A stretch of 64,000 nucleotides of DNA from Nocardioides scoriae (GTDB lineage: Bacteria > Actinomycetota > Actinomycetes > Propionibacteriales > Nocardioidaceae), in contig NZ_LT629757.1 of the NCBI RefSeq assembly GCF_900104965.1, positions 2,976,001 to 3,040,000 of the forward strand. Reading direction: 5' to 3'. This document shows positions 25,745 to 44,918 of this stretch, one piece after another. How positions within the stretch are numbered: position 1 is the stretch's first letter; each line of letters starts with the position of its first letter. The position numbers were made by a program, and so were the translations under genes. Below the pieces are notes generated by a model. The model did not search any database and had not been told where the DNA came from. It saw nothing but the letters and a program-made list of their open reading frames with translations.

Positions 25745-25863
25745 ATCCGATGGCTTGGACGCCCAGCTCGGCGTCGATGACGCTGTGGTCGGCGGGAGCA
25801 TCGCGACCAGGTGCATCCGGGTCACACCAGAAGAATCCAACAAGAGCGCCGGGCGCGTCCTAG
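25745..25863 (+). pseudogene. Relic of the operon lipoprotein's C-terminus
   Basis: The DNA at 25745-25863 is about 80-85% identical by eye to 18722-18840, the end of the lipoprotein gene. It encodes LDAQLGVDDAVVGGSIATRC, then IRVTPEESNKSAG, against LNAQLSVDDGVVGWSVATRC and IRVTPEEANKSVG. The first three quarters of the gene, including the signal peptide, are missing, and the stop is shifted. It is therefore a duplicated and truncated copy. Confidence 0.8.
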
Positions 25864-26154
25864 CCGCTCCGGTCGGCCTCGTGCCTCATGCGCCGCCGCG
25901 TCCGGGCCCACTGGTGTACGCCCCGCTCCGTCATGGCTCATCGACGGGCACCAATGGCAGGGCGACTAGCTACCTCGCCTGCTGTCCTGCGGGACACTCG
26001 CTCGGCGGGTCGGGCGGGCGGAGATGTGCGTTGATCCGAGCATCGGCCGAGCCGATCCGCGGGAAAGCGCACTGGACTGCGGAAACCAATGTCGGAGCGG
26101 CCGGGGCGCGGCGGCTGTCGGCGGGCGCTACCGCAGGACGGGCGACCCGGCTGC

Positions 26155-26531
26155 GCGGCAGCGGTCGTCGAGAGCGAGCGAAGCGCCATCGAACGCTTCC
26201 TCGGCGTCAAGGTCCGCCAGTACCGGTTCGACGCCGCGTCGCACGCATGCGCAACCGCGTCATCCACCGCGGCTACCGGCCGGCCGAAGATGAGGCCGAA
26301 GCTGCTATCGCCGCGACCGAACGCCTCGAAACCCCGGTGATGGACAGGCTGTCAGCCAAGTCCGACACCTACCCGCGCGCAGCACTCATGCTCGTGGGCA
26401 AGGAGGGTCTCGAGCGCCGCGACATGTTCGGCGCAGCGAAGGCCGCCTACAGACACGAGTCTCTTGCCGCTTTGCTGCATGCCTACAACAGCTGGCTCGA
26501 CAGCAGCCCTACGAACGACCTCGACGACTAA
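26155..26531 (+). pseudogene. Frameshifted HEPN-like protein remnant
   Basis: Two plus-strand frames join near 26244. The first gives AAAVVESERSAIERFLGVKV and QYRFDAASHA; the second continues RMRNRVIHRGYRPAEDEAEA, AIAATERLE and an ~65-residue tail ending at TAA 26531. RNRVIHR fits the R-N-x(3-4)-H motif of HEPN-type proteins and lies before a long helix as expected. The N-terminus is missing. The remnant is probably part of a lost RNase toxin or defence gene. The assignment is moderate because the motif is short. Confidence 0.45.
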
Positions 26532-26704
26532 GCCGGCCTCCTCGATCACACGCACCCGTTCTCCGTAGCATTACGGGGGATAGAGGGCAGACCTGCCTCG
26601 GAGTTGAACTCACCACGTGCGATGGCGACAGCCAAGCACCGGCACCGGCAACCGTTGTGAGGGACTCGCCGCCCCCCGCTGCCGTCGCATCGTCAGCCAA
26701 GCCC

Positions 26705-27892
26705 TCACGGGGACTGACTGTCCAGCTGCGGCCCGGTGCCACGGGGCTTCGGTGGCGTCTTCGGCCAGTCACGGGAACCCCGAAGAGGGATGCGCCCGTC
26801 ATCAAGCAGGAAGAGCTCGGCCTCTGGAGCTGGCACGACGTTCCGGTCCCTCCACGAGGCCAGCGCGGGGTGGTGCGCCATGTCAAACAGCAGGCGACCT
26901 AGACGCTTGGCAGAAGCCGCAAGCTGAACTGCCAAAATTTGATCCCCTGCAGTTCCGACGTCGACTGGTCGGGGCCGTCCCCCCAAGTTCGCATAGGGGC
27001 CGTGGCTATCGTCAAGCCAGAGCGCGCGAGCTTCCGCTGCGCTGGCGAGCGCCTCGGCGATCTGGTGTTGACCTGCAGACGTGCTCGCAGTGACGTAGCT
27101 GGCAGCTTCCAGATGGTAGAGAGCATCACTTCGCAACGTGTTGATCCGACCGCCCACCCAAATCGCCCGGTCCAGAATCGCGATTACCCCAACGACGTCA
27201 CGCAGCTCAGCCGAGACCAGCCAGGTAGCCCGTGCCCAAGCGTGGGAACTGATGTACACGTGTCGTGGGTCGGCGTCACCCTGCATCTGGGCGGTGCTTA
27301 CCTCAAGCAGCGTCTGCCGGGCCTCGGCCACCGCGCCCCCGAACCCCAGAGTCTGGTGAACCACATCTCGCAGCCGCTCGGTCTTCCACTTCGCGTAGAC
27401 GTCCCGGCCACACGCCTCGTAGGCGTCGAGAGCGGAAATCTGCTCGCCGAGCTCGAGCCAGGTGTCGCGCACGGTGATCAGGTCGGGCCCTGAGTCGTCG
27501 TTGTCGCCAGCGCGTGCGTGCAGCGCCGCCGGGACCACGTCTCGATACTCCCGGGGCATGGCGTCGCTCGGAGTGGCGTGGCGCGGCGGCAGCCTGATCA
27601 TCTCGGACCGCTGGGCAAGCTGCTCCGGGCGTTGCACCCCACTGACTCGCCAGGCCAGTCTGCACAGGTCGCGAGCGAAAGGGTGGGCGTCATTGAAGTG
27701 ATAGCCGTCATCACCGACTCGCAACAAGTCACTCTCGATCAGGGGAGCGGCCGCGCGCGAGGCAGCGAACTTGCTGATGCCAGCCGTCCTCGCGAGTTCG
27801 GTCAGCGAAGCGGGGTGCAGGGTCGCGATTGCGGCCGTGACGAGCTGGCTCGGGGCGCCGTTGGCCGGGATGACATCACCGTAAGCAAACAT
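26705..27892 (-). CDS. Winged-helix protein with large helical C-terminal region
   Basis: 395 residues from ATG 27892; the upstream start at 27940 adds an unlikely N-terminus. Residues ~10-75 form a winged helix: LVTAAIATLHPASLTELART, AGISKFAASRAAAPLIESDL and LRVGDDGYHFND. The rest is Ala-rich and helical, with patterns like repeated helical hairpins (DTWLELGEQISALDAYEACG, HVYISSHAWARATWLVSAEL, LRSDALYHLEAASYVT). This looks like a transcription factor with a TPR-like sensory part. No known family named. The C-terminal ~60 residues are Pro/Arg-rich and may be disordered. Its regulatory targets are unknown. Confidence 0.7.
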   Translation of the reverse strand: MFAYGDVIPANGAPSQLVTAAIATLHPASLTELARTAGISKFAASRAAAPLIESDLLRVGDDGYHFNDAHPFARDLCRLAWRVSGVQRPEQLAQRSEMIRLPPRHATPSDAMPREYRDVVPAALHARAGDNDDSGPDLITVRDTWLELGEQISALDAYEACGRDVYAKWKTERLRDVVHQTLGFGGAVAEARQTLLEVSTAQMQGDADPRHVYISSHAWARATWLVSAELRDVVGVIAILDRAIWVGGRINTLRSDALYHLEAASYVTASTSAGQHQIAEALASAAEARALWLDDSHGPYANLGGRPRPVDVGTAGDQILAVQLAASAKRLGRLLFDMAHHPALASWRDRNVVPAPEAELFLLDDGRIPLRGSRDWPKTPPKPRGTGPQLDSQSP

Positions 27893-28128
27893 GCAACTCA
27901 GTGTAGCGGCACCCGCAACACCCACCCTCCGATCGCGCAACAGGGCCGTGCAGTTCGTGCCTACGGCCAGTACCGACCGACCCCAGCGTGGGCCGCCTGA
28001 CTCTGCACACAGCTGCAGCGCCCACCTCGAACCGACTCGGCCGGCGACGGGTCCCGGTCGAGCGGCACGCTTGAATCTGAATCAAGCCGGGCGGGCTAGT
28101 GCTAGTGCTGGTGCACACGTCAGATGGA

Positions 28129-28180
28129 GACCTGGCCTACGTCAGCAACTGTTGGGGACCTGGCCTGCGTCAGCAACTGT
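28129..28180. repeat. Two 24-bp direct repeats
   Basis: Copies at 28129-28152 and 28157-28180 differ by one base (GACCTGGCCTRCGTCAGCAA plus four bases), start to start 28 bp. A short triplet-like repeat (GCTAGT GCTAGT GCTGGT) lies just upstream at 28095-28112. Possible protein-binding sites, a slipped duplication, or an old recombination junction. Confidence 0.7.
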
Positions 28181-28405
28181 GACCGGAGCGACAGGCAAGA
28201 AGGTTACGGTCCGTGACGGCGCTAGTCGCTCTCCCCATTCTGTTGCAACCGAGCCAGAGACTTGCTGCTCGGGGCTGTCGGCGTCCGTAGGATCGAAGTT
28301 GCCGCTTTCCACGTCGCAGATCAGCTCCTCGAGCAAGTCAGCCAGCTCGAGACACCGGTACCTGACCGACGCTGGGTCCGTGGATTCACGCGAGATTTGG
28401 TCCAT
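28142..28405 (-). CDS. Hypothetical small protein
   Basis: 87 residues from ATG 28405, which has GGGACGG about eight bases upstream. A helical acidic segment (RCLELADLLEELICDVESGN) is followed by a polar C-terminus. No family is recognised. It lies downstream of the HipA remnant on the same strand, so it could be part of the same lost locus. The last codons fall in the direct repeats, which suggests the 3' end was altered by duplication. Confidence 0.35.
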   Translation of the reverse strand: MDQISRESTDPASVRYRCLELADLLEELICDVESGNFDPTDADSPEQQVSGSVATEWGERLAPSRTVTFLPVAPVTVADAGQVPNSC

Positions 28406-28500
28406 GTTGCAGACCGTCCCTAGGGCGGCCGATGCGGCAAGCAGCGCCTGTTTACGAACCTCGTCCCTAGTGGCGCTGATCGCGGTGACGACGGGGCGAT

Positions 28501-28766
28501 GACGGTGTCGGCGTTGAGGGCGAAGAGACGGAAACGGCGGCCGTGCGGCCCCAGACCTAGAGCTGGCTGGCGCGTCCCCCGCTGCGGGTCCGCGCGATTG
28601 CCTAGTTCGCAACTAAGGAGTTGCGGGGTGCCGTAGGCCAGGGCGACCTTGAGGTTTCTCCGTCCCAGGGGGCGGCGTAGTTGCGCAGGTGGTGCTCGGT
28701 GTCGCCGATGCACATGTCCACAATCAGACGCGGGAACAGCTTGCGGAAGGCCGGTCCGGCGTCGTG
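28501..28766 (-). pseudogene. HipA-type kinase C-terminal remnant
   Basis: Minus-strand frames joined near 28653 read HDAGPAFRKLFPRLIVDMCI, GDTEHHLRNYAAPWDG, then LKVALAYGTPQLLSCELGNR and LGLGPHGRRFRL. This follows the HipA C-terminal core, 'LFRRIVFNIL-GNTDDHLRNH...L-LSPAYD..P', where the D-x-x-x-HLRN segment is part of the kinase active site. The N-terminal half is gone and one frameshift splits the rest. HipA kinases are toxins of HipBA modules that phosphorylate aminoacyl-tRNA synthetases; no HipB remains nearby. The similarity is clear in pattern, but the fragment is short. Confidence 0.6.
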
Positions 28767-28886
28767 CCCCAGCCGCAGAGCCCGGTGCCGGCCTGCACGT
28801 ACTGGGCCCGCAGGAGCTTCTCGATGCGTGGAAGACCTACCGCTGAAGAGCCACGACAGACGGTTCCCGTGCCACCTCACAACCAA

Positions 28887-29555
28887 TCAGGATCCGCGGC
28901 GCGGGTCTTCCGAGCGAGTCTGCAGTGATGCCCCTTGGTACGTGGGCTCGGCCGCGCCCTGAACACGGACAGGCCCAACCAGCAGCATTCCTCGGAGCGT
29001 GCCGAGCAGCAGTGACACATCCCAAGACCTCACTCCCGCGCCGAACTCCCCAGCGCGAACCCGGATCGGTCCGTCGTCGGCTTCCGGCGTTGCCTGACAA
29101 CACGTGGTGTCTGCCCCATCCCTAGAGACCACGGCAAGCAACTGCTCCCCGACTGACCGCAAGGCGAACCCGGACACGACAACGGACCGACTTCCCTCCT
29201 CCTGCACGTCGGTCAAGCTCACCAGTTCTTCGCGCGCCTGGACCGCGCCCACCTCGTCACCATCGGCCACCAAGGCCAAGACCAGGGCCTCCAGAGCGCG
29301 ACGCTCCACATCGACGGCCGACAACCCAGCTGCATGATCGGACGGCCCCAACCGCAGCAGAGGTGCACCCGTCCGCAGGCTGGCGGCAAGTGCGCGGATG
29401 CCCGCCTGCATCACCATCGGTGTGTCTGACGAGTACCCGCCCCCACCGCACGTTCGCGGGTCGCAGCGGCACGCCGCGTCGAGACCCGTCTCGACGGCGA
29501 GGGCGTCCTCGAACGAGAGCGGTTCTGCGCAGGCGCACAACGATTCGCCGCTCAT
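28887..29555 (-). CDS. Hypothetical protein with Cys-rich N-terminus
   Basis: 222 residues from ATG 29555. The first 40 residues contain four paired Cys (LCACAEPL, ACRCDPRTCGGGG) that could bind zinc. The remainder is an alpha/beta-looking region, with helices such as DVERRALEALVLALVADGDE and strands such as SRSVVVSGFALRSVGEQLLA. No known family is recognised. The C-terminal tail past ~residue 190 is low complexity. The gene is divergent from the serine recombinase operon, and the intervening 298 bases carry an AT-rich palindrome. Confidence 0.5.
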   Translation of the reverse strand: MSGESLCACAEPLSFEDALAVETGLDAACRCDPRTCGGGGYSSDTPMVMQAGIRALAASLRTGAPLLRLGPSDHAAGLSAVDVERRALEALVLALVADGDEVGAVQAREELVSLTDVQEEGSRSVVVSGFALRSVGEQLLAVVSRDGADTTCCQATPEADDGPIRVRAGEFGAGVRSWDVSLLLGTLRGMLLVGPVRVQGAAEPTYQGASLQTRSEDPRRGS

Positions 29556-29688
29556 CGCGCGTACCTGCTTGCAAGAAGTTGCGGGCTCCGCACGGTCGCC
29601 GTCGAGCAGCAGGATTTCAACGAAACGATTTTCTGCTTCTCGAGGTGTCGGTCACACCGTCACGGGAGCCACAACCCTTGCTCATCTA

Positions 29689-29718
29689 GTGTTTATAAAC
29701 AACACTCCCCTGAGTGCA
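29689..29718. promoter_or_regulatory. AT-rich palindrome upstream of the recombinase operon
   Basis: GTTTATAAAC at 29691-29700 is a perfect 10-bp palindrome. It is embedded in GTGTTTATAAACAACAC, whose ends GTGTT/AACAC are also inverted. It runs into CACTCCCCTGAGTG, a second small inverted repeat. The block stands out in GC-rich DNA. It lies in the gap between two divergent genes and may be an operator, promoter or recombinase-binding site. Confidence 0.5.
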
Positions 29719-29853
29719 AGGCGCCGCGGACCCCGCCCCCGATGTGACCGACCCCGTGGTCTCCGAAGTGACCGCTAAGGCCTGGATGGCCTTGGCACGA
29801 GGCGCCTCGGAGGCGGCCGAGCCTCACCGTGAGGTCGGCGGGAAGGAAACATC

Positions 29854-31320
29854 ATGACCAAGTCACCGGACCCCACCTGCATGCTGGACCGGCCCCCAAG
29901 GGTGCTCGGGCTCTACGTCATCCGCGAGTCGGACCAGTGGGACCTTGAGCTGTTCAACGCAATGCGCGAACAGACCTACCTCAGCCACCGGGCGATCGCG
30001 GCTGTTGACGCCATCAGGCAGGTGGGCCTTGAGCCGCTGCGCGGCGACTCATTCCCTGTGACGCTCACGGACGACGTGGGGGTTACAACGACGACTGAGG
30101 TCCACGTGGAGGTCCTGCGCAACGGCTCCACGAAAGCGCGACTGTTCTTCTTCGGCGGCTACTGGCACCTGTGGTCGCAGGCGTCGGCTGCGTCGGTCGG
30201 GAACGATGGTGTGAACGCCTTCACTTCGATCCTAATTGAGGTGATCCAGCGGCTCCGCCCGTTCAACCTGTACGCAGCAAACTTCAGCCGACTGATCCGT
30301 TCGCAGCCTCAGGGCAGTCGCCTGGCTGCGGCGATCGAGGGCAACGTCGACCACCTGCACGCGGGAACGCTGCGGTTGACCTTCGTCGGACCAGAGGGCC
30401 AGGTCGGGTTCATGATGTTCAGCATGTTCAGCCTCGTGGCGAGCATGGAGCGCGACTGGATCGTGCAGCGGCTGATGGCGGGGCGCATCTCCAAGTGGCG
30501 CCGCCGCGAGTGGGCTTTCGGGAAGGGCACGGTGCCATTCGGATACGAGCTTCACCCGACGACGGCGGAGCTGGTGGTGGATGAGAGCAAGCGCGCTCAG
30601 GTCCGCGAGATGATGATGATCCTGTCGAAGGACGCTCCGCCGTCTCAATTAGCCCGCGAGCTGGATCGTGCCGGCATCACGTCGATGCGGAAGCATCGGC
30701 GGCTGAAGGAGGTCGTGCCGGTCGGCGGGATGAGCAGCACGAGCGCCCTCATCGACTCGATGTTCGCGTGGGCCCCGCTGTGGTGTCACGGCGAATACCT
30801 GTTCCGGGTGTCGAACGTGTTCCCGGGGATGGAGGAGCTGGCCGGCGTCCCCATCGTGCGGGACCCGGCCCGGCCCGACGACCTGGGTGAGATGCAGATG
30901 CTCTACAAGGTTGGTGTCCCAGACGGTGGATGGGCGGAGCCGGAAGTTGTGCAGGCGTTCGCTGAAGCTGCCGCGCGGCACACGCGTCACCTGCTCGAGA
31001 AGCGGAACCGCAACGACGTGCGGCCGCTCGCTGAAGACGTGATCGCTGGGTCGGCCAGCCCCGTGGCGCACAACGCCACTCTGAACGCCCAGCACAGTCG
31101 TGCCTTGGATGTGCAGTCGCAGGCCCGGCGCGCCGCTGCCCGTTCGCGCCGATCGGTAGCCGCCTTGGCAGGACGGCGGTGGCGAGATGGCAACTGGGAG
31201 TACGAGCTGTTCGTCGCTGGCACAAACCTCTACACGGTCGTCCGCTGGCCCGCTCGGGCAGGCAAACGTTCCGATTCACGTCTCGCCTTGCTCGAACAGT
31301 CGAAGGAGGAGAACCGGTGA
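29854..31320 (+). CDS. Diverged large serine recombinase (resolvase core plus recombinase domain)
   Basis: 488 residues from ATG 29854 (GAAGGAAA eight bases upstream). The N-terminal strand VLGLYVIRESDQ keeps the R-x-S pair of resolvases (RES for RVS). After an unusual ~60-residue insertion, NFSRLIRSQPQGSRL supplies the second catalytic box (RLxR). Then FSLVASMERDWIVQRLMAGR is the standard long E helix, and KWRRREWAFGKGTVPFGYEL starts the recombinase domain, followed by SQLARELDRAGITSM. The C-terminal ~200 residues lack an obvious zinc ribbon and coiled coil of normal large serine integrases. The next gene overlaps by four bases and carries Cys clusters and a coiled coil, so the functional enzyme may be split. 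Confidence 0.75.
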   Translation: MTKSPDPTCMLDRPPRVLGLYVIRESDQWDLELFNAMREQTYLSHRAIAAVDAIRQVGLEPLRGDSFPVTLTDDVGVTTTTEVHVEVLRNGSTKARLFFFGGYWHLWSQASAASVGNDGVNAFTSILIEVIQRLRPFNLYAANFSRLIRSQPQGSRLAAAIEGNVDHLHAGTLRLTFVGPEGQVGFMMFSMFSLVASMERDWIVQRLMAGRISKWRRREWAFGKGTVPFGYELHPTTAELVVDESKRAQVREMMMILSKDAPPSQLARELDRAGITSMRKHRRLKEVVPVGGMSSTSALIDSMFAWAPLWCHGEYLFRVSNVFPGMEELAGVPIVRDPARPDDLGEMQMLYKVGVPDGGWAEPEVVQAFAEAAARHTRHLLEKRNRNDVRPLAEDVIAGSASPVAHNATLNAQHSRALDVQSQARRAAARSRRSVAALAGRRWRDGNWEYELFVAGTNLYTVVRWPARAGKRSDSRLALLEQSKEENR

Positions 31321-32912
31321 GGCTAGGAAGTACCTTCTCGTCGGCACGGACGGTCGACTCGATGGAAGCGCAAGTCGTCGGCTACGTGAAGAAGGATGAG
31401 ATGTTTCCCGGGTTGGTGGACGCGTTCATCGCTGCGTGTCGAACGGGCCTGCCCGTGCACCGTCGCCCCGGGCACTCAACGTTCTCGGGTGCGCATACCG
31501 GCACCACCGTCGATGTCCTGGCTCAACGTCGGCGACTCCAAGAGGGCGTGATCCTCGAGGCCCGCAAGAAGATCAAGAACGCCATCCGCCGCGAGATCGA
31601 GGTGGAAGATGACGACGAGACCGCAGAGCTCTATCGCGGTGCGGCCGCAGAAGCGCGCGAGGAGCTGCGCTCAGCCCGCGCCGCACTCGCCCAGATCGAG
31701 GCAGACGCCAAGGTCCCAACCACAACGGGACCATTCGATGCGTTGACGCACGTCATCGTCCCCGCGATGGCCCGGCTCAAGATGAGTGGCGGCGTCCTTT
31801 CGCAGGAGGAGGTTCAAGCACTCGAGGCAATAATCCCGTCATTCTCGATGGAGCTGCGGAGCGGCAAGTGGTGGGCGATCGCGACCGTTCGGATCAACAC
31901 CGTCGAGGGGGTCGCGGACCTAGGTCCTTTCGAGTGGGCGATCTCGGGTCGCGCCCGCGGGACGGCGCGAGTGGCCGCCCAGCTCGACACCGTGCCGGAT
32001 GTTGGCGCCGCGTCGCGTCGGCGGTTGTTCGGTGACTTAGTCCGAAGCGGCAGGGTGACTGAGGACGCAGCCACGATCCTGCGCAATGCTCCGTTTGTTC
32101 AACTGCCCTACTTGGTCCTGCACTCGGTGCGGGGCGAGGAACTGCCGCAATGGATGGGCGAGGAGTGGCGGGAACCGCGGTTTGTGTCGTGGATCGTAAG
32201 CATCTACACCGACCCAAAGTTCAGGTGGATGAACAACGGCATGTACGCGACGGTGTCGTACTCACGTCAATTCGCGGCGACCTTCGCTGCGAAGCAGGAG
32301 GAGTTCACCGTCTCGGACCTCGCCGAGTGCGCACCGATTCCGCGCGCGAGCGCGTACCACCAGATGACGAGGCCGTCGTCGACGAAATACAGCAAGATAC
32401 GACCGTTCGAGCCGACACTTGAGCTCGTTGGAGTTTTGCCCACAGGCATTCACCGTCACGTGATGCGTGGATGCAAGTGCGTGTGCGGTCAGGTCGCGTC
32501 GATCGTGACGCACGTGCCCGAAGTTCCGCGCGACTTGCTGTGCGACTGCGGTCGCATGCTCGACACGGAACGGTTTGGGTTGGATGCCGCTGTGCGGTTT
32601 CCGGAGGAGTACAAACTTCTTCGCTTGCCGTTTGACGAGTGTGTGGACGAGCTGACCGATCGGGTGGCAGCTCAGCGTGACGTGCCTGGCGCCGTGGGGC
32701 GGCGGTTGATGCTGCTGAGCGACCTACTGGAAGACGGAGCGACAGACCTCCGTATTGCCACGGCCCTGGGAGGGAAGGGGACCAGCCAGAGCACGCTCCT
32801 GGGCAAGTTGGAGCAGTTTGGTTGGCTGCGACGGAGCGACACCCGGCCGGCTATCTGGACCTACACGGATGAGGGAAGAGCACAGGCCGCCCGTTTTGCG
32901 GCTGACGGCTGA
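31317..32912 (+). CDS. Partner of the serine recombinase with coiled coil, Cys clusters and winged helix
   Basis: 531 residues from GTG 31317 (GTGA overlap). Residues ~75-130 look like a coiled coil (QRRRLQEGVILEARKKIKNA, AAAEAREELRSARAALAQIE). The middle (~130-370) is alpha/beta and unassigned. Residues ~380-415 carry CKCVCGQ and LLCDCGRML, a likely zinc ribbon. The end is a winged helix (LMLLSDLLEDGATDLRIATA, STLLGKLEQFGWLRR). No whole-protein family is recognised. Translational coupling to the recombinase and the split of typical integrase accessory parts between the two suggest they work together in recombination. Confidence 0.75.
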   Translation: MRLGSTFSSARTVDSMEAQVVGYVKKDEMFPGLVDAFIAACRTGLPVHRRPGHSTFSGAHTGTTVDVLAQRRRLQEGVILEARKKIKNAIRREIEVEDDDETAELYRGAAAEAREELRSARAALAQIEADAKVPTTTGPFDALTHVIVPAMARLKMSGGVLSQEEVQALEAIIPSFSMELRSGKWWAIATVRINTVEGVADLGPFEWAISGRARGTARVAAQLDTVPDVGAASRRRLFGDLVRSGRVTEDAATILRNAPFVQLPYLVLHSVRGEELPQWMGEEWREPRFVSWIVSIYTDPKFRWMNNGMYATVSYSRQFAATFAAKQEEFTVSDLAECAPIPRASAYHQMTRPSSTKYSKIRPFEPTLELVGVLPTGIHRHVMRGCKCVCGQVASIVTHVPEVPRDLLCDCGRMLDTERFGLDAAVRFPEEYKLLRLPFDECVDELTDRVAAQRDVPGAVGRRLMLLSDLLEDGATDLRIATALGGKGTSQSTLLGKLEQFGWLRRSDTRPAIWTYTDEGRAQAARFAADG

Positions 32913-33177
32913 TCGGCCCGGCACTACGGAGATGGTGACGGTCGTCGATCTAGGGATCACTGAGCACGCGATGTGCCCGACTTCGCCTGGGCCCGTTCGC
33001 CACCGCACTACCTGTTGCCCTGGCTACTTCACGCAGCCGCCGGAGCCGTTGACGATGCCGCGGGTGCCGTCTGTCGACGGGGTCGCGCCCATGACGAACG
33101 GGTCCTTCGACAGCTTGACGTCGTTGGGGTTCTTCATCTCCGCCGCCCACCCGCGTGCCTCCCTCGCTTGCCGGACT

Positions 33178-33546
33178 TCACTGGCCAGTCGCTCCTTCGC
33201 TCCTCCCACTCGGTCTCGCCAAGCGGCCAGTAGTCACTGAGGCCGGGGTCACGTTGTGAACTCTCGCGGGAGACAACGAGCCTCCAAGAGTGGAGGCGAG
33301 CGGGGTAATGGTGTTGACGTACTCGGCGACCTTGTCCTCGCGGGTGTTGCTCCGGGTCCAGACCCGCAGCCCGGTGCCCTGGACCTCGTAGTGCCCGCTG
33401 AGGCGGGTATCGGAGTAGGCGGGGTTGAAGTCGCCCGGTACCGAGATGGTGCTTGAGGCGGCCTGCGCGGGTCCGGCCAGGGCGAGGGCGGCGGTCGCGG
33501 CGGCGCCGAGGGCGGTACCGATGCGGGTCAGGGGTCGTGCGCTCAT
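33178..33546 (-). CDS. Small secreted protein, possibly frameshifted
   Basis: 122 residues from ATG 33546, with AGGAG six bases upstream. The signal peptide is clear (TRIGTALGAAATAALALAGP, AQAASST). The mature part has strand-rich sequence (SGHYEVQGTGLRVWTR, KVAEYVNTITPLASTLGG). After about residue 100 the translation turns Arg/Ser-rich. A different minus-strand frame continues protein-like to 33024 (GGAKERLASEVRQAREARGW, DPFVMGATPSTDGTRG), so a frameshift near 33210-33240 may have truncated a longer protein. No family recognised. Between 32913 and 33023 nothing is supported. Confidence 0.55.
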   Translation of the reverse strand: MSARPLTRIGTALGAAATAALALAGPAQAASSTISVPGDFNPAYSDTRLSGHYEVQGTGLRVWTRSNTREDKVAEYVNTITPLASTLGGSLSPARVHNVTPASVTTGRLARPSGRSEGATGQ

Positions 33547-33910
33547 GCGGGCTCCTGTGGTGAGGTCCCGACGCCCCGACGAGGGCGTTGGGGGATGACG
33601 GCAACCCCCCGGGAAGTAGTCGCAGCACGCGAACGCACGTCGGGGGTCGCCCAGGGCGCGGCGCCGACCGCTAGACCGGGTTTCCGTCCCTCGGGCATTC
33701 CTGTCTCAGGGTGGGGCCGGGGGGTTACCCGCGTGCTACGGGGCCGCCGCCCATGCACTGCAGGAGTTGTTCGCGGCCGGCCTGGTCACGTGGGGGTGTG
33801 CGACGACTCATGAGCGCACGTCGCGGGACAAGCCGTCCTGCCCGCCGTCGCGGCAGGCGTGGGCAAGGTCAACTGGGTGTCAGTCGAACACATGTTCTAA
33901 CCTGCGACAG
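33547..33910. other. Intergenic region without a supported gene
   Basis: GC-rich, with frames on both strands but no motif. The first ~50 bases are the leader of the minus-strand secreted protein gene. No RNA gene or strong hairpin seen. Confidence 0.4.
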
Positions 33911-34129
33911 GTGTCACGCCAGCCCTCGTTCCACGTCTTGGTGGACACGACAGGGAAGTGGTCGCTTCCTGCGCCGGGGATGCTGCTGGCGTGGCGTCAC
34001 AAGGGTCGGCGCGGTTGGGAGGCGTGGGTCGTCCGCGTCGAGTCGTACCCCACGGGGACGGGATCCGAGGTGCTCGTGTCGCAGTCATGGGTGCCGACGG
34101 CATTGGTGCGCCCGGCCGAGGAGTCCTAG
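33911..34129 (+). CDS. Short protein of the 'PG-LL-W' actinobacterial type
   Basis: 72 residues if started at GTG 33911; longer in-frame starts exist. The sequence SLPAPGMLLAWRHKGRRGWE, AWVVRVESYP and VLVSQSWVPTALVRP resembles small actinobacterial proteins of pattern 'PGLLLEWRR--GGW-A-VVYV...V-WVPA--LRP', often found in mobile DNA next to integrases. I recall the pattern but not a family name. It is a single strand-rich domain, probably cytosolic. No function is known. Confidence 0.45.
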   Translation: MSRQPSFHVLVDTTGKWSLPAPGMLLAWRHKGRRGWEAWVVRVESYPTGTGSEVLVSQSWVPTALVRPAEES

Positions 34130-34290
34130 GAGGCGCGGCCTCGGTCGGCGGCGTGAGGTGGACTGCCACGACGGCTGGGCGACAGAGGTGGGGTGGGCCG
34201 GGGGGTCATCAGCTCCGAACACGCGTCCCAGACAGGGGCGCAGGTCTGGGTGCAGCATGCACACTTTCCTTCTGCGGACGGAGGCGACGA

Positions 34291-34620
34291 GTGGACAATG
34301 ACAGGGTCATCTGGGTCAGCGGCGGCGGCCAGGCGGGGTACTACGGCTGTTCGCACCAGGGGTGCGGTCGCAAGGCCCGCAACGTCGACAACTGGGGCCG
34401 CTCACCTGACCTTCTCTTCGACGACCACATGTGCTGCGGGCGGTCCTTGCACGACGGAAACCATGAGTACCGCGAACGCGAGCGTGAACAAGCGGACCGG
34501 TTCGCGAGGGGACGAGCGTCGACGAACAGGGCCCGGGCTCGCGGCCGCAGCGAACCTGAGGGTCTCGTTCATGTGCTGGTTAGCTCGGTTGTTCGGCGAC
34601 TCCTGGGCATAAGGCGTTGA
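34291..34620 (+). CDS. Hypothetical protein with Cys/His cluster
   Basis: 109 residues from GTG 34291, supported by GGAGG seven bases upstream. Residues ~10-55 hold YYGCSHQGCGRKARNVDNWG and LLFDDHMCCGRSLHDGNHEY: C-x4-C and CC-x-x-x-H clusters suited to zinc binding. A charged helix follows (EREREQADRFARGRA). The C-terminal end is Arg/Val-rich and may be read-through of a damaged 3' end. Function is unknown; a DNA-binding accessory protein is possible. It lies 51 bases upstream of the abortive-infection gene. Confidence 0.5.
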   Translation: MDNDRVIWVSGGGQAGYYGCSHQGCGRKARNVDNWGRSPDLLFDDHMCCGRSLHDGNHEYREREREQADRFARGRASTNRARARGRSEPEGLVHVLVSSVVRRLLGIRR

Positions 34621-34671
34621 GACCTCGACCGCTGATCCCGGCCGGCTGGACGGCACCGTGAGAGTTGAACC

Positions 34672-35499
34672 ATGGCTACGGTGAAGCTCACTCACCCACT
34701 CGCCTCTAGCCTCGCGCAGTGTTTCTACGGTTACGGCCGCCCGACCGGTGCCGCCATTGATCGCTACTTCAAGCGTCTGCAGGCCCCGTGGGATGTCGCG
34801 GAAGGTGCGTCGAACAAGGAGGAGCGCGTCGAGGCCCTGCTGGCCTGGGTCGGCAACAACTGCCCGGACCGGATCAGTGAAACTGTGAACTGGATGGTCT
34901 ACGACCTCCACCGCGGTGGACACCTTGATCCAGGTCAGGACGAGGTCTACGTCGGCAACTCGATGGCAAGGAACCTCACCGCCCAGCTCGCCAAGCAGGG
35001 CCTGCAGGTTGGCGACGACGGGGAACTGCGCGAGATAACGCCGTTGGCCGCCGGCTCGCTGCCGGCAAGCAGAAGCCACGTACGCGCCGAGATCTCGCGT
35101 CTGCAGCGCAGTCACGAAGACCCCGCAGCGCTACTGGGTCACACTAAGGACCTCCTTGAGACTGTTGCCAAGACCGTCATCCACGAGACGGGCGGCGCCG
35201 TCGATGACCGACTCGACTACCCGCAACTGCTCCGGAAGGCACGAGAAGTCCTCCCCCTCATGCCTACTGACCTCGAACCGGCGTCACGAGCGGGCAAGGC
35301 GATGGAACGCTTCATCAACGGACTCTGGACCATGGCCAACTCAGTCAATGAACTCCGGAACGCCGCTGGAACCGGTCACGGGCGGCTGACTACGGGGCCC
35401 TTTGGGACCGCGCATCCTCGAGCCGTTGCCGACGCTGCCGTCGCCCTGGCGCGACTCTGGCTCGAGCTCCTCGATCAGCAGGCGGAGGGCGAACCGTGA
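34672..35499 (+). CDS. Abortive-infection family protein (Abi_C, HEPN-type C-terminus)
   Basis: 275 residues from ATG 34672. The C-terminal ~90 residues carry the Abi_C signature FINGLWTMANSVNELRNAAG directly followed by TGHGR, where 'N-x-x-RN-x-x-GTGHGR' is the HEPN-like RNase motif of AbiJ/Abi_C proteins. An RN pair and a downstream His are present. The N-terminal part is helical (YRYFKRLQ-like, EERVEALLAWVGNNCPD, QLAKQGLQVGDDGEL). Members stop phage growth by cleaving RNA on infection. No clear partner gene is adjacent, and AbiJ acts alone, so it may be an active standalone defence gene. The frame is intact. Confidence 0.8.
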   Translation: MATVKLTHPLASSLAQCFYGYGRPTGAAIDRYFKRLQAPWDVAEGASNKEERVEALLAWVGNNCPDRISETVNWMVYDLHRGGHLDPGQDEVYVGNSMARNLTAQLAKQGLQVGDDGELREITPLAAGSLPASRSHVRAEISRLQRSHEDPAALLGHTKDLLETVAKTVIHETGGAVDDRLDYPQLLRKAREVLPLMPTDLEPASRAGKAMERFINGLWTMANSVNELRNAAGTGHGRLTTGPFGTAHPRAVADAAVALARLWLELLDQQAEGEP

Positions 35500-36051
35500 C
35501 CGAAGGGCTCAGGTTGAGCGGAGCCATGGGGCAGCTGGTGTGCTGGAACTGTTAGGTGGCGGTAGGTCGGGACTTGACTCGGGCCAAGGCTGCCCCCGGG
35601 CCCAGGTTGGGTTGGGGCTCCGGATGCGCGCGTGCCCGTGTCATCCGGCCGTCGCAACCTGGTGCCGCAGCGGAACGGGAAGCGGGCGATTGGGGGGTGC
35701 GGTGCCCGCCCCGGGTTGGCGCGTTCTCCTGCGCGGTCGGCGGGTTCTCGCCGACCTCCTACACGGCCGCATGGTGCCCGACGGTCGGGTACCGAGTTCT
35801 CGGCAAATACCGGGCCCGGCGCCGCGAGCGCAGCTTCCGCGAAGTGCGCCTAGGTGCTGCCCCTCCACGGGTCGTGACGTGTCTGGCGGGCGGCGGTCCA
35901 TCCAGGGCTGTCGCCCGTTCGCGACGGTCGCAGTCCCCATCCGGGGCTCTCGACACCAGGGGCCGCGCTGACGGCAGGGTTGCTCCTTGCAGCTCGCACC
36001 TTCTGGTCATCGCCAGCATTGGGGTAGGTCCAGTGGTTGGCGTCCTTCGGC
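35500..36051. other. Intergenic region without a supported gene
   Basis: Overlapping frames on both strands have Arg/Pro/Gly-rich translations without motifs. No RNA gene recognised. The end carries the leader of the three-gene AbrB/recombinase operon. Confidence 0.4.
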
Positions 36052-36435
36052 ATGACGACCTTCCGTACCCTGCGTCCGCGCGACGACTGGGCCGATCTGG
36101 GGTCGAGGGTCGACCAGTGGCTGGACAGACGGCTGGGCATCGGCGGGCGAACAGAGGACGAAGCCCGCGCCAAGTTCGACCTCGTCGGCCGCGACGTGCC
36201 CGTTGCCGATCTGATCGACCAAGTGCAGCGCGAGCGCGAGAGGCTGTTGCGTGACGGGACCACCCGGCCGGAGCTGTGGGTCTCAACCATCGGTCAGCTC
36301 ACCCTGCTGGAAGCCCTCGAGGGGCTTAGCCCTCTTGCGTTCGACGCCTGGCGAGCGCTGACTGAAGGCGGCGCCGACATGCTGGACACGGCACGTGCCG
36401 TCCGCGACGCGACCACATCGTCAGAGTTCAGCTGA
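36052..36435 (+). CDS. Hypothetical protein, first gene of the AbrB-recombinase operon
   Basis: 127 residues from ATG 36052; TTG 36037 is an alternative. It is helical and charged (DDWADLGSRVDQWLDRRLGI, ADLIDQVQRERERLLRDGTT, SPLAFDAWRALTEGGADML). No domain recognised. The next gene starts nine bases after its stop, so the three genes probably form one unit. A small accessory protein for the recombinase is possible by position only. Confidence 0.55.
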   Translation: MTTFRTLRPRDDWADLGSRVDQWLDRRLGIGGRTEDEARAKFDLVGRDVPVADLIDQVQRERERLLRDGTTRPELWVSTIGQLTLLEALEGLSPLAFDAWRALTEGGADMLDTARAVRDATTSSEFS

Positions 36436-36444
36436 GTTGATTGC

Positions 36445-37176
36445 GTGAGTCCGGCCGACCTGGAGGTTCGTGCGCAAGGGCCTGAATTGCAGGTTTGCCC
36501 AAGCTGTGGCAGTCCGACACACGCGAAGCAGCATCCCGTCACACCTCTCGTGACGCTGAGGCTGGGGGCGCAGCTCCGCGTCCGGCGAGGAGCCGTCGGT
36601 TCGGTTGGTGATTGGTTGTCGGATCTAGGGCGTTCCGGACCGGTCCTGGACATGAGTACAAACCACGCGTTGGCGGAGCGGTTCGCGGAACTGTCCGGAC
36701 GCCCTGTTCCCGACCTCGTTCTGCCCACGAAGGTCTTTTCTGCCTCTACCGGCATGCGCCAGCCGACAGTCCCACCGCTGGTCGACCTCTTCGCTCAAGC
36801 AGCTGAAGGACGCACGTCCGACCTGGTGGGAACTCAGCCTGTGCTCGACGCCACCTCGCGCATCAGCCTCGGAAAGGCCGCAGCTGCGATGGGGTGGGAC
36901 GCAGGCGCCGCGCTGTCCGTGCGCATAGAGGGGTCTCGGGTGCTGCTGAGCCGCAGCGACGAACCGGGCGACGCATCGGGTGGCGGCCGGCCTGCAACCA
37001 GCATCTGTGCCCGCCTGGACTCGCAGCGACGCCTAACGCTGACGCCCGGGGCGAAGTTCGCGCTCGGTGTCGCGCCTGGGGCGCAGGTTCAAGTCATCGC
37101 CGACCCTCTGCGTGGCAATGTCATGTTTGTCTCGCTAGCCCGTGCGCTGAAGCTGCTTATGGAGGGCCCGGAGTGA
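36445..37176 (+). CDS. Tandem AbrB-like domain protein with N-terminal zinc-finger-like motif
   Basis: 243 residues from GTG 36445. The N-terminus has VCPSCGSPTHAKQH, a C-x2-C...H-x-x-x-H cluster. Two swapped-hairpin-type segments follow in the C-terminal half: LDATSRISLGKAAAAMGWDA with SVRIEGSRVLLSRS (residues ~135-170), and LDSQRRLTLTPGAKFALGVA with VQVIADPLRGNVMFVS (~190-235). Both start 'LD--R-I/L-L---' like AbrB/SpoVT hairpins. The protein probably binds DNA. It overlaps the recombinase gene by four bases (GTGA), so it may act as a recombination regulator or accessory factor. No exact family is named. Confidence 0.65.
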   Translation: MSPADLEVRAQGPELQVCPSCGSPTHAKQHPVTPLVTLRLGAQLRVRRGAVGSVGDWLSDLGRSGPVLDMSTNHALAERFAELSGRPVPDLVLPTKVFSASTGMRQPTVPPLVDLFAQAAEGRTSDLVGTQPVLDATSRISLGKAAAAMGWDAGAALSVRIEGSRVLLSRSDEPGDASGGGRPATSICARLDSQRRLTLTPGAKFALGVAPGAQVQVIADPLRGNVMFVSLARALKLLMEGPE

Positions 37177-38396
37177 GCAGCGACAAGGCGTCCGCGCTCG
37201 CCGGGATGCTGCGCGTGGGCGAGTTCACGATGGATGACCTGCGTCAGGCCGCCGAGCGGGCCGGCCTGGAGGACGCACCTGGCAACCAAGGTGATGGGCT
37301 CACCGTCGCGCAGTTCTACGACACCGTCAGGCGAGCAGCGCTACATGCGAACGCAGACGAAGAACGCGGCGGTGGCACATTCCGTACCTACGAGCCGTAC
37401 TTCCGCCTGTTCGTCGAGGGCTACCCCTACGCCAACCGCAGGCAGACCCGAAGTAGCGGCCAACCGACCGGCCAGACCTCGACCCCGGCACAGGTGCCGG
37501 TGGAGGAGAAGTTGTTCGCCGGCTGCGGCCACATGCAACTCGCTGACGTGCGTTTCAGCGACGTAGACGAGGCGGCGAAGTGGGCGTTCCGGCGAGCCCG
37601 GCTGGACCACGAATGGAAGAACTGGCGACGAGAGGACCAGGGGCGTCGGCCCCGCGAGCACGGCCAGAGCGGTGCGCGGACCTCGTTCCACAACGCCGTG
37701 CGGTTCTTCTTCGCCCAGGCCGTGAAGAACAACCTGTTGCCCGCGTCCGCGGACCCCACCGACCATCTGACGCGCCCTGCCCGCAGCGACGGCTCACGCC
37801 GCGCGTTCACCGAACCCGAGCTCGTCGAACTGCACCGCGTCGCGGCGACCAGCGGCAACGACCCGGAGCTCGCCAGGCTGCTCGTAGACACCGTGCTCGT
37901 GACCGGCGCCCGCCGCGAGGGCCTCCTCAACCTCAACCTGGGGCGGCTAAACCCGGCTCGGTGCACGGTGTTCCTGCACGAGAAGGGCGACAAGGGCTGC
38001 GAGCAGCCCATCACCGGCGAGCTACTGCAACGGTTGACCGACTTCGCGCACTCACGCGGAGCCAGCCGCTTCAGCGACCCCGTGTTCTGCCAGAAGCCGA
38101 AGGCCGGTCAGACGCAGCCAGTGCGCGTCACCAGTCGGTGCATCGACAGCGTGAACAGTCGGCTGCAGAAGCACGTTCCGTGGGCAGACGACCTCGGTGT
38201 CACCCTCCACTGGTTCCGTCACCACGCGGTCACCCAGGTACAGCGCATCGCCGGCGACGCCGTCGCAGCCCGGTTCGCGCGCCACTCGGCGAGCGGCGTG
38301 ACGTTGAAGTACTCGAAGGCCTCCGGCGAGGAGGTGTGTCAGGCGATGTCCATCATGACCGGATGGGTCCACCCACTCGCCTGCGGCGGTTGGTGA
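37173..38396 (+). CDS. Tyrosine recombinase (phage-integrase family)
   Basis: 407 residues from GTG 37173 (GTGA overlap). The N-terminal part (~1-220) is a core-binding region with WKNWRREDQGR and SFHNAVRFFFAQAVKNNLLP. The catalytic domain has every expected residue: Arg in VTGARREGLLNLNLGRL, Lys in LHEKGDKGCEQP, HxxR as HWFRHHAVT, His in FARHSASG and the nucleophile Tyr in VTLKYSKAS. It should be active. It lies 6.4 kb inside the tRNA-Leu gene end, and tRNA 3' ends are classic targets, so it may be the island's integrase or belong to a nested element. The long frame upstream of 37173 is read-through of another frame and is not used. Confidence 0.9.
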   Translation: MSSDKASALAGMLRVGEFTMDDLRQAAERAGLEDAPGNQGDGLTVAQFYDTVRRAALHANADEERGGGTFRTYEPYFRLFVEGYPYANRRQTRSSGQPTGQTSTPAQVPVEEKLFAGCGHMQLADVRFSDVDEAAKWAFRRARLDHEWKNWRREDQGRRPREHGQSGARTSFHNAVRFFFAQAVKNNLLPASADPTDHLTRPARSDGSRRAFTEPELVELHRVAATSGNDPELARLLVDTVLVTGARREGLLNLNLGRLNPARCTVFLHEKGDKGCEQPITGELLQRLTDFAHSRGASRFSDPVFCQKPKAGQTQPVRVTSRCIDSVNSRLQKHVPWADDLGVTLHWFRHHAVTQVQRIAGDAVAARFARHSASGVTLKYSKASGEEVCQAMSIMTGWVHPLACGGW

Positions 38397-38838
38397 GCGG
38401 CAGCGGCTACGCCCCTCGCCTGCAGCCCGGCCGGCGCACGAGAACGAACGGGCTGCCCACCGGGGCCTGGATCAACACCGCCGTGTTTGCCGACGGCGAT
38501 GTCTACCAACGCACTCCGCCTCTCGGCAGCGGCCTATCCGGCAGCGAATGAGGGTGGATGGTGGGTTATCTAGCCCTTCTGTCACTGCGTTGCCCTGCGG
38601 CGTGGGCACGCTGACGTTGCGCGCACCCGGCGGGTCCGCCGACGTCCGTGGATTCTGCCGAAGGCCGCCGCCAGTCGTACCGGTCCGCCGCCGCGCCCGC
38701 TGCCCGTCTTGCGGGGCCCACCTGACGGCCGACTCTCCGGTTCGGTCCCCGAGGTCTGTTGCAGGGGGACGGGGCCATCCTGGGCCAGGCCATTGGGGAA
38801 CCTGCCTGAGCAGCTGAACCCGGCAACCTGCCACGTCA
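38397..38838. other. Intergenic region with possible zinc-finger fragment
   Basis: A plus-strand stretch near 38690-38740 reads RARCPSCGAHLTADSP, which looks like part of a zinc ribbon but has no start or rest of gene. Otherwise no feature is supported. Confidence 0.35.
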
Positions 38839-39405
38839 CTACTCGAGCTCGTAGGAGGCCTTGCCGATGGGGTCAGTCAGGCCATCTGTCGCAACCAGGT
38901 CCACCGGAGTCTTCAGGTCGTCAAGCTCATAAGCGATCGCGCTCTCAACGGTTCCGCCCTTCTTGATGGTCTCCATCTGGCTTTCCAGGAACCGGTCATC
39001 CGGAAGCGAGCCCACCTCCAGCTGGTTCTCCGCATCCGGGTTGTTGTCCTGATAGGCGATGAAGTTCGCGATGAAACTCAACGGGTCAGTTTTCTGACCA
39101 GAGACGTTCGTGGTCTTGTAGTAGAACGCGATCACCGGCTTGGTGCCGTACTCGTTGCCCCTCTGCCCCGCCTTGATCACCTTGTGGCGCGTGACCTGGA
39201 TCTTCAAGTCCGGGGTCGTGAGCACACCATCCTTGAAGGTCGGGGCGTCCTTGCCGGCTGAATCGTCGGCGCCGTCGCCTTCCTGCGGCGAGAACGTCTG
39301 CGAGGAACTGTCGTTCTCCGCGTCGTTGCTGGCAGTGCCACACGCGGTCAGCGCGAATGTGAGCACGCTCGAGGCGCAGACAAGCGAGATCAGTGATTTC
39401 TGCAT
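38839..39405 (-). CDS. DUF5067-type lipoprotein
   Basis: 188 residues from ATG 39405 (GGAAAG upstream). The lipobox is ALTACGT after a short signal peptide. A Ser/Asp-rich linker (~25-55) leads to a domain with IQVTRHKVIKAGQRGNEYGT, KPVIAFYYKTTNVSGQKTDP, and the C-terminal AYELDDLKTPVDLVATD. This is the immunoglobulin-like DUF5067 pattern of surface lipoproteins (DUF4352-related). It is exported and membrane-anchored; the function is unknown. It sits alone on the minus strand with nothing operon-like next to it. The lower-GC codon use compared with neighbours hints at transfer from a lower-GC donor. Confidence 0.82.
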   Translation of the reverse strand: MQKSLISLVCASSVLTFALTACGTASNDAENDSSSQTFSPQEGDGADDSAGKDAPTFKDGVLTTPDLKIQVTRHKVIKAGQRGNEYGTKPVIAFYYKTTNVSGQKTDPLSFIANFIAYQDNNPDAENQLEVGSLPDDRFLESQMETIKKGGTVESAIAYELDDLKTPVDLVATDGLTDPIGKASYELE

Positions 39406-40101
39406 GGGCTTTCCATTCTCTTGTTGCGCACGTTGGCGCTCACCCGGGAACGGGTCACACTAGCCAGGCGCGAACGTTGCAGGCTCGCAACCGCGCGGCG
39501 TCCCACGGGACGGCGGCCAGCGGAACTGCTCGGGTCCGATGCGCCGCTGCGCCACAAGATGACGCCTGGTGCCGTGACGCTACCGAGAGGACCGAGCAAC
39601 GGATTGGTGCGTTGACGTCGGTGGGGCGTCCGCGCGGCCCCAGGGCGAACGGTTGCAGCGGCCCGTCGGATCAAGACCGTGGCGACATGAACGTTCTTGC
39701 GACCGGAGCAACTGAGGGCCCTGCTTGCCGAGCGGTTCGTACGGCCTCCGGTGCTTGGTCAAGGAGTCCCAGTGGGCGGGATCCGACCCGACGGGCGGTT
39801 CCGGTGGGAGCGCGTGACGAGGCGATGATGATGGAGCGAGATCCCGTGATGGTGTCTCAGTCGAGAACTGCGTTTGGTCGACTCTCTCAGAACGTTTTCG
39901 GTCATTGTCTGACCCGACGGCTGAGCAGTTGGCCTCCATCTGTGAGGAACTGGCGCAGCGTGAGGTGGCTATCCCGAAAGACGGCGTCTTGTCTGGACCA
40001 GACCACCTACGGCCCTGACGCCCACCGGTCCCCTCCTGGAGCGCACTTTGTGCTCCAGTTGTCCCCATTCGCCACCACAGATCGCAACGGGGGACAGGCA
40101 C
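39406..40101. other. Intergenic region with possible gene debris
   Basis: A plus-strand frame at about 39895-40020 reads RFRSLSDPTAEQLASICEEL, then AQREVAIPKDGVLSGPDHLR and a stop. It is protein-like but has no clear start or domain, so I do not call a gene. The last ~100 bases form the leader of the large secreted protein. Confidence 0.35.
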
Positions 40102-42336: not shown

Positions 42337-42840
42337 CCGCCCGTCCCACTCCCCCTACACGGGTTGCAGGCGGGGCAGACGACCTCCGCAGCTCCAGCAG
42401 CCGTACCCGAGCCCCACCTGACATGCGCCCGCTGTTCCGCGCTCATCTACGTGCGGCGGGAAGTCCTCGTGTTCATCGTCGAGGATGCCATCGACGACAG
42501 CGGCGTCCTGACTCCGGAGACGCTGGCTCGCGACGCAGCCGTAGGCGCACTGGTCGGTGCCATCGTTGACGTGACCTAGCGTCGGCAGGCTTAGTGGCGG
42601 CCGACCTTGCCAGACTGCCGTGCCGGGGCCGCAGTCCGTCTCCCCTGAACCAGCGGCACACGTGAGGTCGGCAGTGACCCAGCGGCGCGCGGTGCACCGA
42701 GACGCGGTGAAGTTGCGGGGCCGCGGCTACGGAGTGTCGGGTGCGGCTGGCCGCTCCGCCGCCGAGCCGGGTTGCATGGCGCGCTGGTCGTGTCCTCGGA
42801 GGTGAGGTGTGCGCCCCATGATGCCCAGGCCGGTCGTGAA
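42337..42840. other. Intergenic region without a supported gene
   Basis: A 71-codon frame at 42364-42579 contains HLTCARCSALIYVRREVLVF but lacks a ribosome-binding site and a family. Other frames are low-complexity. Nothing is firm. Confidence 0.35.
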
Positions 42841-44615: not shown

Positions 44616-44835
44616 GGTGGTCGTCTCGTGCCCGCCAAGGTCGGCTGGGTCGGACGCTGCGCCCACTCGGGTCGCCGACGCACGCGGTTCCGGTGCGGCC
44701 ACACGCACCCCCGAGAAGTCAGTCCTCCGTGCCGACGGGCACCTACTTGCACGAAACGGCATGGCCCCCACAGTGGGAGTCATGCCGCCTCATACCTACC
44801 TGATGTAGCCACTGGGGAGAACCCCAGTTTCAAGT

Positions 44836-44918
44836 GCGCGAGGGGGGAGTTGAACCCCCACGCCCTTTCGGGCACACGGACCTGAACCGTGCGCGTCTGC
44901 CTATTCCGCCACTCGCGC
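44836..44918 (-). tRNA. tRNA-Leu (anticodon CAG)
   Basis: Minus-strand cloverleaf with a perfect 7-bp acceptor stem (GCGCGAG/CTCGCGC), a D-arm with GGCGGAATAGGCAGAC, and the anticodon arm CACGG-TTCAGGT-CCGTG giving CAG. The class II variable arm is CCCGAAAGGGCG, and the T-arm is GGGGGTTCAACTCCCCC. CCA is not encoded. It is divergent from fhaA, as in mycobacteria (leuT next to fhaA). Its 3' end faces the accessory region, which is the usual side for integration. Confidence 0.95.

Follow-up and report, generated by a model that had tools for sequence, protein, structure and literature searches.

We analysed a 64,000-nucleotide stretch of the Nocardioides scoriae chromosome (contig NZ_LT629757.1, positions 2,976,001 to 3,040,000, hereafter the window), which sits in a 4.06-Mb single-contig genome, and studied in it a pair of overlapping genes whose products are named P1 and P2. 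A sequence-only reading of this DNA had proposed that the pair is a serine recombinase split over two genes. Our results favour, with a probability of roughly 60%, the view that P1 and P2 each make up one half of a single protein of the large-serine-recombinase type. The halves are homologous to those of a single-chain relative, the two genes occur together at three loci with the same overlap, and the zinc cysteines of the recombinase ribbon have been lost. From these features we infer that the two proteins assemble, that both are needed and that they catalyse recombination, as well as the place of the cut within its domain and a possible substrate and direction for the reaction. Neither of the two features on which the split-recombinase idea had been staked, a resolvase-type first protein and the co-occurrence of both genes, was refuted, and a relative encoded in one frame was added to them. 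The idea is partly supported; P2 showed no significant match to ordinary large serine recombinases.

To place the pair among actinobacteria, genome searches were done with P1 in the phylum, with P2 in the order and with the P1-family and P2 profiles in the phylum, and the best three or four candidates were scored per genome. Among the 391 genomes of the order, P2 gave three matches including its own, and the other two, in Nocardioides sp. IC4_145 and Aeromicrobium sp. 9AM of the same family as the window genome, adjoin P1. A first scan of a contig collection with one genome per species found nothing with the P1 sequence alone, and a pattern scan of that collection with the P1 profile returned the same two loci, both with P2. 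All three close loci located therefore carry both genes, with the same four-base overlap, and close relatives of the pair seem to be rare.

The reported overlap of four bases is exact (31317-31320, shared by P1 and P2; Table 1). The P2 frame, in the -1 frame relative to P1, has 625 open codons, of which 531 are used and 94 lie upstream of the GTG start. A P2 frame that is shifted by -1, follows directly on the P1 stop and is open upstream of its start could also come from a recently broken gene, or from a sequencing frameshift that mimics two genes. The same overlap is found at three loci in three genera, at about 50% (P1) and 35% (P2) identity, which makes this explanation very unlikely. It is further opposed by the strong ribosome-binding-site match before P2 in the window, since a match of at least six bases at the same spacing occurs at 15 of the 2,214 NTG codons of the plus strand, and by codon changes of the kind that selection leaves, seen in both genes: in six of six pairwise comparisons (both genes, three genera) the second codon position varies least and the third most. 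The P1 and P2 genes are thus not chance reading frames; they have been kept in three genera with this pattern. Because a clear AAGGAGG precedes the GTG of P2, separate translation is the simplest reading. The two overlapping genes are probably translationally coupled. The Shine-Dalgarno matches ahead of P2 in the two relatives are weaker than in the window, with 4 and 0 bases. No programmed frameshift or split intein was seen by eye at the P1/P2 junction, for which no dedicated test was run.

The two proteins are linked to each other by G129, a genome from another actinobacterial class, which has two gene copies with P1-like and P2-like parts in one frame without a stop. One product, P0004, has 764 residues and ends at the contig end; the other, P0003, has 908 residues and its start lies on another contig, with 67 identical bases common to the contig ends. 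These single-chain proteins share 26-31% identity with P1. In profile comparisons, P1 aligned to their first part (99.8%, E 2e-27) and P2 residues 20-446, cysteine pairs included, to their second part (96.7%, E 3e-10). When the single-chain proteins were halved, P1 scored 268 with the first half and 17.5 with the second, and P2 scored 16.4 and 83.3, respectively. With the whole single-chain frame the scores were 212.5 for P1 and 85.9 for P2, and the best of 40 block-shuffles reached 22.1 and 23.1. P1 and P2 are thus homologous to consecutive parts of a single-chain recombinase-type protein. The earlier statement that the second gene matches no family stands for library families, but P2 does have a homologue, in the latter half of this protein. 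The single-chain relatives resemble the pair in having both halves in the same order, the same loss of zinc cysteines and the same asparagine in place of arginine, and differ from it in their one reading frame and in the spacing of the catalytic motifs (112 vs 122-127 residues). The loss of zinc is probably older than the split, because the single-chain relatives also lack the zinc cysteines.

P1 is a diverged serine recombinase. The catalytic R-x-S and RLxR boxes and the E helix that had been read in the first gene are all present, as VIRES, SRLIR and ERDWIVQR. P1 residues R146 and R149 align with R68 and R71 of resolvase, and R24, S26, R146, R149 and the E-helix motif ERxxIxxR are kept across the large divergence of the family. 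P1 matched the PHROG 95 integrase family (E 2e-10) and a DNA invertase family (E 1e-7) in PHROG. In hhalign, residues 143-278 of a profile built from the three P1 proteins aligned with 11 ordinary large serine recombinases (98%, E 9e-14), a match that reaches just the start of the recombinase domain. With the Pfam Resolvase model (cut-off 23.3 bits), the P1 proteins of the window, Nocardioides and Aeromicrobium scored 15.2, 23.2 and 19.2 bits, P0003 scored 13.3 and P0004, at 27.8, exceeded the cut-off; the Pfam Recombinase domain had no match in P1 up to E 1. In a second structural comparison, to which we give low weight, the top four rows for P1 were serine integrases (Z 5.9-6.2, root-mean-square deviation (rmsd) 16-18 over 220-237 residues), followed by Bxb1, LI integrase, TnpX and phiC31 structures with Z from 4.9 to 3.8, mixed with unrelated folds. 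Residues 224-379 gave weak matches to 9iu8 (Z 4.9, rmsd 4.6, 107 residues) and 4kis (Z 4.8, rmsd 3.5, 95 residues). The proposed resolvase-type nature of P1 is thus consistent with PHROG, hhalign and the weak structural rows, with Foldseek silent. Small serine recombinases have about 180-200 residues and a short helix-turn-helix end; P1, with about 270 residues after the E helix, does not fit the size of a resolvase or invertase. In resolvase, R8 and R68 are described as phosphate contacts and R71 as a proposed contact in the part of PMC4499144 that was available.

The catalytic domain of P1 carries an unusual insertion, and the spacing of its motifs shows that the one suspected from the letters is real. 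The distance from the start of xxRxS to the start of RLxR is 112-127 residues in all five family members, vs 72-77 in ordinary members (from the 8 of 11 rows with both motifs readable), which gives an insertion of about 35-55 residues. Residues 66-108 have a mean predicted local distance difference test score (pLDDT) of 73-82 per ten-residue block and are among the best parts of a low-confidence model. Near the C-terminus, the ribbon CxxC is replaced by WxDG or WxDD in all five family members, so that the family has no four-cysteine zinc ribbon; CxxC is at the expected place in seven of the 11 ordinary rows, the other four being misframed, truncated or with a misplaced CxxC only. Strands are still predicted at the C-terminal end of P1, where the ribbon is expected. 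The earlier claim that P1 lacks a zinc ribbon is correct for the zinc cysteines and not for the predicted ribbon-like strands.

The sequence-only reading had found no coiled coil in the first gene and had placed a coiled coil, cysteine clusters and a winged helix in the second, and this arrangement was recovered. In the window, the coiled coil is predicted on P2 (helices at 67-130) and not on the chain that carries the catalytic domain; the aligned part of the single-chain relatives is on the same chain. The cysteines of CKCVCG and LLCDCG (C388, C390, C409 and C411) are invariant in the three P2 proteins, and their counterpart aligns in the single-chain relative. The winged helix (model residues 452-531) has MarR as its best PDB row (Z 11.7, rmsd 2.7, 76 residues aligned). 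In the available part of PMC3783163, the zinc domain of LI integrase consists of zinc-bound strands, a helix, a coiled coil, a helix and a final hairpin. At the P1/P2 border, predicted strands end P1, and a helix, two coiled-coil helices, then helices and strands open P2, an order of predicted elements that appears to follow that of the LI integrase domain from the ribbon onward. Given this matching order, the cut would fall inside the zinc domain, after the final strand of the ribbon and ahead of the first helix.

If the two proteins are halves of one recombinase, the nucleophilic serine, the E helix and the recombinase domain, which is the core DNA-binding part, would come from P1. P2 would add the coiled coil, which in large serine recombinases helps to decide which sites pair, and would contact DNA through a winged helix and a probable zinc ribbon. 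A heterodimer of P1 and P2, with the zinc domain rebuilt between them without zinc, would form one protomer, and four such protomers would bring two DNA sites together and then cut, rotate and rejoin them. The likeliest job would be site-specific insertion or excision of a mobile island, and the supply of P2 could control the timing or the direction of the reaction; the coiled coil of serine integrases has been implicated in direction (PMC3783163, in the part available). We put forward more tentatively, at somewhat under even odds, that the pair is a natural obligate two-subunit large serine recombinase, with its pairing module as a separate protein whose supply sets the reaction on, off or in direction, and with a zinc domain rebuilt between two chains without zinc.

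Several results weigh against the two-halves reading. The AlphaFold models are of low confidence (mean pLDDT 50.5 for P1, and 47.8 for P2, low outside the coiled coil), and a Foldseek search with each of them gave no match up to E 0.001. By hhalign, P2 matched the 11 ordinary large serine recombinases with a probability of 0.1%. The opening 215 residues of P2 and its relatives were also set against the equivalent end region in nine ordinary members. The six-row comparison, run in three modes, was equalled by 0, 0 and 1 of 60 shuffles. Leaving out the sixth row raised this to 16 and 14 of 60, and the three P2 rows by themselves gave 19 and 3 of 60. The attempt to prove by sequence that the start of P2 is the end of an ordinary large serine recombinase failed, both in the hhalign comparison and once the sixth row was removed. 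Engineered enzymes add a further point: in the available part of PMC6868429, phiC31 integrase divided between beta-9 and alpha-I needed trans-splicing for activity, its halves giving no non-covalent complementation. Split TnpX, in the same source, regained DNA binding only.

The missing link between P2 and ordinary recombinases would be expected if P1 were a self-sufficient diverged recombinase and P2 a regulator, such as a directionality factor or an operon repressor, that became fused to it in the other lineage. P2 has two probable DNA-binding modules of its own and is less conserved than P1 (33-36% vs 48-50% identity among the three genera), and a stand-alone relative of its first part is found beside a single-chain recombinase in G129. 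We consider this explanation unlikely. It would leave P1 with no coiled coil and only the first half of a zinc domain; none of the close relatives that were located has P1 on its own; and the predicted order of elements fits a divided domain. The stand-alone relative, P0005, is a protein of 413 residues with a CxCG/CxxC pair, encoded downstream of one single-chain copy (L022 4606-5844, minus strand). Over its N-terminal 205 residues it matches the opening part of P2 together with the C-terminal halves of the single-chain proteins (88.7% in global mode, a value equalled by 0 of 60 shuffles). Compared directly with the full P2 profile, P0005 aligned in the cysteine region alone (10%), and against ordinary large serine recombinases it had no match (6 and 14 of 60 shuffles as good). 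Given P0005, the P2 module may also exist without P1.

The active site is the other weak point of the two-halves reading. We take the position 25 residues ahead of the arginine of RLxR to be the equivalent of resolvase R45. It is asparagine in all five family members and arginine in all nine readable rows of the 11 ordinary ones. When an aligned column is used instead of a fixed distance, the family has N, D, E, A and R, the single R (one of five) being in the G129A fragment. The D of DRLxR is S in all five members. With asparagine for the usual arginine and serine for the aspartate, catalysis may be lost or changed, and the asparagine is the main argument against it. A basic residue at position 94, inside the insertion, is kept in the five aligned family members and could, as a matter of speculation, stand in for the missing arginine. 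These substitutions would suit a pair that no longer recombines, in which the recombinase scaffold serves as a DNA-binding regulator or in defense. Neighbors of defense type point the same way: Abi_C and SocA-like genes in the window, a DUF4062 gene in Aeromicrobium and, in G129, a methyltransferase-like gene and an operon resembling type I-E CRISPR, each named from sequence with no library search. We find this reading improbable, since R24, S26, R146, R149 and the ERxxIxxR motif are kept over a large divergence and neither P1 nor P2 had a match in PADLOC up to E 1. Defense genes are common on mobile islands in any case.

Analysis of the genomic environment showed that the pair sits in variable DNA. 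Window positions 26000-44830 gave short matches only elsewhere in 23 congeneric genomes (best 12 candidates scored per genome). A tRNA-Leu gene and the DNA downstream from it are present in 22 of these genomes, and the remaining one has a 77-base tRNA match only. No empty site for 26000-44830 was detected in the 23 genomes, and the tRNA-Leu stretch (44761-44918) has no 13-base repeat elsewhere in the window. With the flanking DNA as query, no breakpoint adjacent to the pair was detected in 48 other Aeromicrobium genomes (best six candidates each), nor in 146 other Nocardioides genomes (best two candidates each, a weak test). In Nocardioides sp. IC4_145, the pair is flanked by perfect repeats of 92 bp, spaced about 89 kb from each other (L027 5789-5880 and L060 575-666). 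The repeat is the end of an acyl-CoA-dehydrogenase-like gene, named from sequence, and a tyrosine integrase adjoins one copy; these repeats may possibly bound a large island with many metabolic genes. In Aeromicrobium sp. 9AM, transposase-like genes, again named from sequence, and a DUF4062 gene surround the pair.

These surroundings bring two further points against a recombinase that moves its own region. Tyrosine integrases are found in two of the three regions, so that the pair may not be the mover of those regions. Attachment (att)-like repeats had been suggested as something to look for around the homologues, and none was found in the six flanking stretches, where the best imperfect palindrome was never above the best of 40 shuffles. 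Two 12-base words are common to pairs of flanks from different loci and none to all three, a count made with no control.

More distant relatives were also sought. The P1-family profile matched 18 of 396 genomes of the phylum and, besides the window genome and G129, all matches fall within model positions 159-360, the part common to ordinary recombinases. Among 66 genomes of its class, G129 was the only one with a match. In the same 396 genomes, the listed matches of the P2 profile were its own genome and short parts in three others (positions 416-498, 443-525 and 292-370). As G129 is not among them, this profile falls short of the single-chain form, and an equally diverged stand-alone P2 could be missed. 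By eye, matches in G182 and G142 to the C-terminal part of P1 were put down to chance similarity with biased frames. Plasmids gave no match to P1, P2 or P0004. Pattern scans of viral contigs confirmed no relative, whether with P1, P2 and their profiles or with P0003 and P0004. In phages, two weak matches covered P1 residues 185-301 only, and a search with P0004 found none.

Other features were noted near the pairs and their relatives. A 28-bp perfect direct repeat (window 18776-18803 and 25801-25828) lies inside a longer imperfect one, in which the 3' end of the gene at 18319-18840 recurs 7 kb downstream. Between the two copies lies a gene for a small helix-turn-helix protein, excisionase-like by eye, a pattern that might be left by an integrating element. 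Within G129, a type I-E CRISPR-cas-like operon (L021 82-9476), named from sequence with no library search, lies beside a single-chain recombinase gene, and near the start of the other a cytosine methyltransferase-like gene is followed by a possible restriction gene (L023 4955-7106), likewise named from sequence.

Table 1. Positions in the window of the P1 and P2 genes, their predicted parts and neighboring genes.
Feature	Position	Strand	Remarks
P1	29854-31320	+	488 aa; catalytic domain, E helix, recombinase-domain-like part, cysteine-less C-terminal ribbon
Nucleophile motif YVIRES	29914-29931	+	P1 residues 21-26; R24, S26; RES in 5/5 family members
Inserted stretch in catalytic domain	30049-30177	+	P1 residues 66-108; predicted strands
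Arginine motif SRLIR	30286-30300	+	P1 residues 145-149; SRLxR in 5/5 family members
Recombinase-domain-like part	30523-30990	+	P1 residues 224-379; weak structural rows 9iu8, 4kis
Ribbon remnant without zinc cysteines	31159-31251	+	P1 residues 436-466; WRDG in place of CxxC
Shine-Dalgarno-like AAGGAGG	31303-31309	+	Inside P1, ahead of P2 start
P2	31317-32912	+	531 aa; GTG start at 31317
Helix, would-be alpha-J of zinc domain	31401-31445	+	In P2; pLDDT below 50; placed from element order alone
Coiled coil, two predicted helices	31515-31706	+	P2 residues 67-130; pLDDT 71-80 over 71-130
Would-be alpha-M, beta-13, beta-14	31740-31943	+	In P2; low-confidence model; sequence test not passed
Cysteine pairs CKCVCG...LLCDCG, probable zinc ribbon	32472-32552	+	P2 residues 386-391, 407-412
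MarR-like winged helix	32679-32909	+	P2 residues 455-531; structural comparison
Abi_C protein	34672-35499		Same variable region as the pair
Tyrosine integrase	37173-38396		24.9 bits, just under Pfam 27.1
SocA/Panacea-like protein	42841-43731		Same variable region as the pair

Compared with known large serine recombinases (LI integrase, Bxb1, phiC31, TnpX), the pair shares with them the catalytic serine and two arginines, the E helix and the opening part of the recombinase domain. It differs in being two polypeptides without ribbon zinc cysteines and with asparagine for arginine, in the P1 insertion, and in the extra C-terminal cysteine pairs and winged helix of P2. CcrA and CcrB of the staphylococcal cassettes are also encoded by two adjacent recombinase genes; each of them is a full recombinase, whereas P2 has no catalytic domain. 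XisF of cyanobacteria is a complete large serine recombinase. It needs further proteins, XisH and XisI, for excision, and the accessible part of PMC4874684 does not present these as a missing half of XisF. Engineered split forms of phiC31, TP901 and Bxb1, in the accessible parts of the reports, are serine integrases in two polypeptides as well and differ in being artificial; some were brought together by chemically induced dimerisation (PMC6813296). The "split integrase" of PMC4158269 was set aside, as the available part of that paper concerns proviral integrase genes cut by integration in an archaeon, which is a different thing. In the open-access literature, which was not exhaustively covered, we found no example of a natural split, two-gene or two-subunit serine recombinase.

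Serine integrases are widely used as genome-writing tools, and a natural split is of interest because the engineered splits of this type of enzyme needed added help. If true, it would show where the enzyme can be cut and still assemble, and the module for pairing and direction would lie on a protein that can be added or withheld. Likewise, asparagine in place of arginine and a ribbon without zinc would test which parts of the standard mechanism are dispensable.

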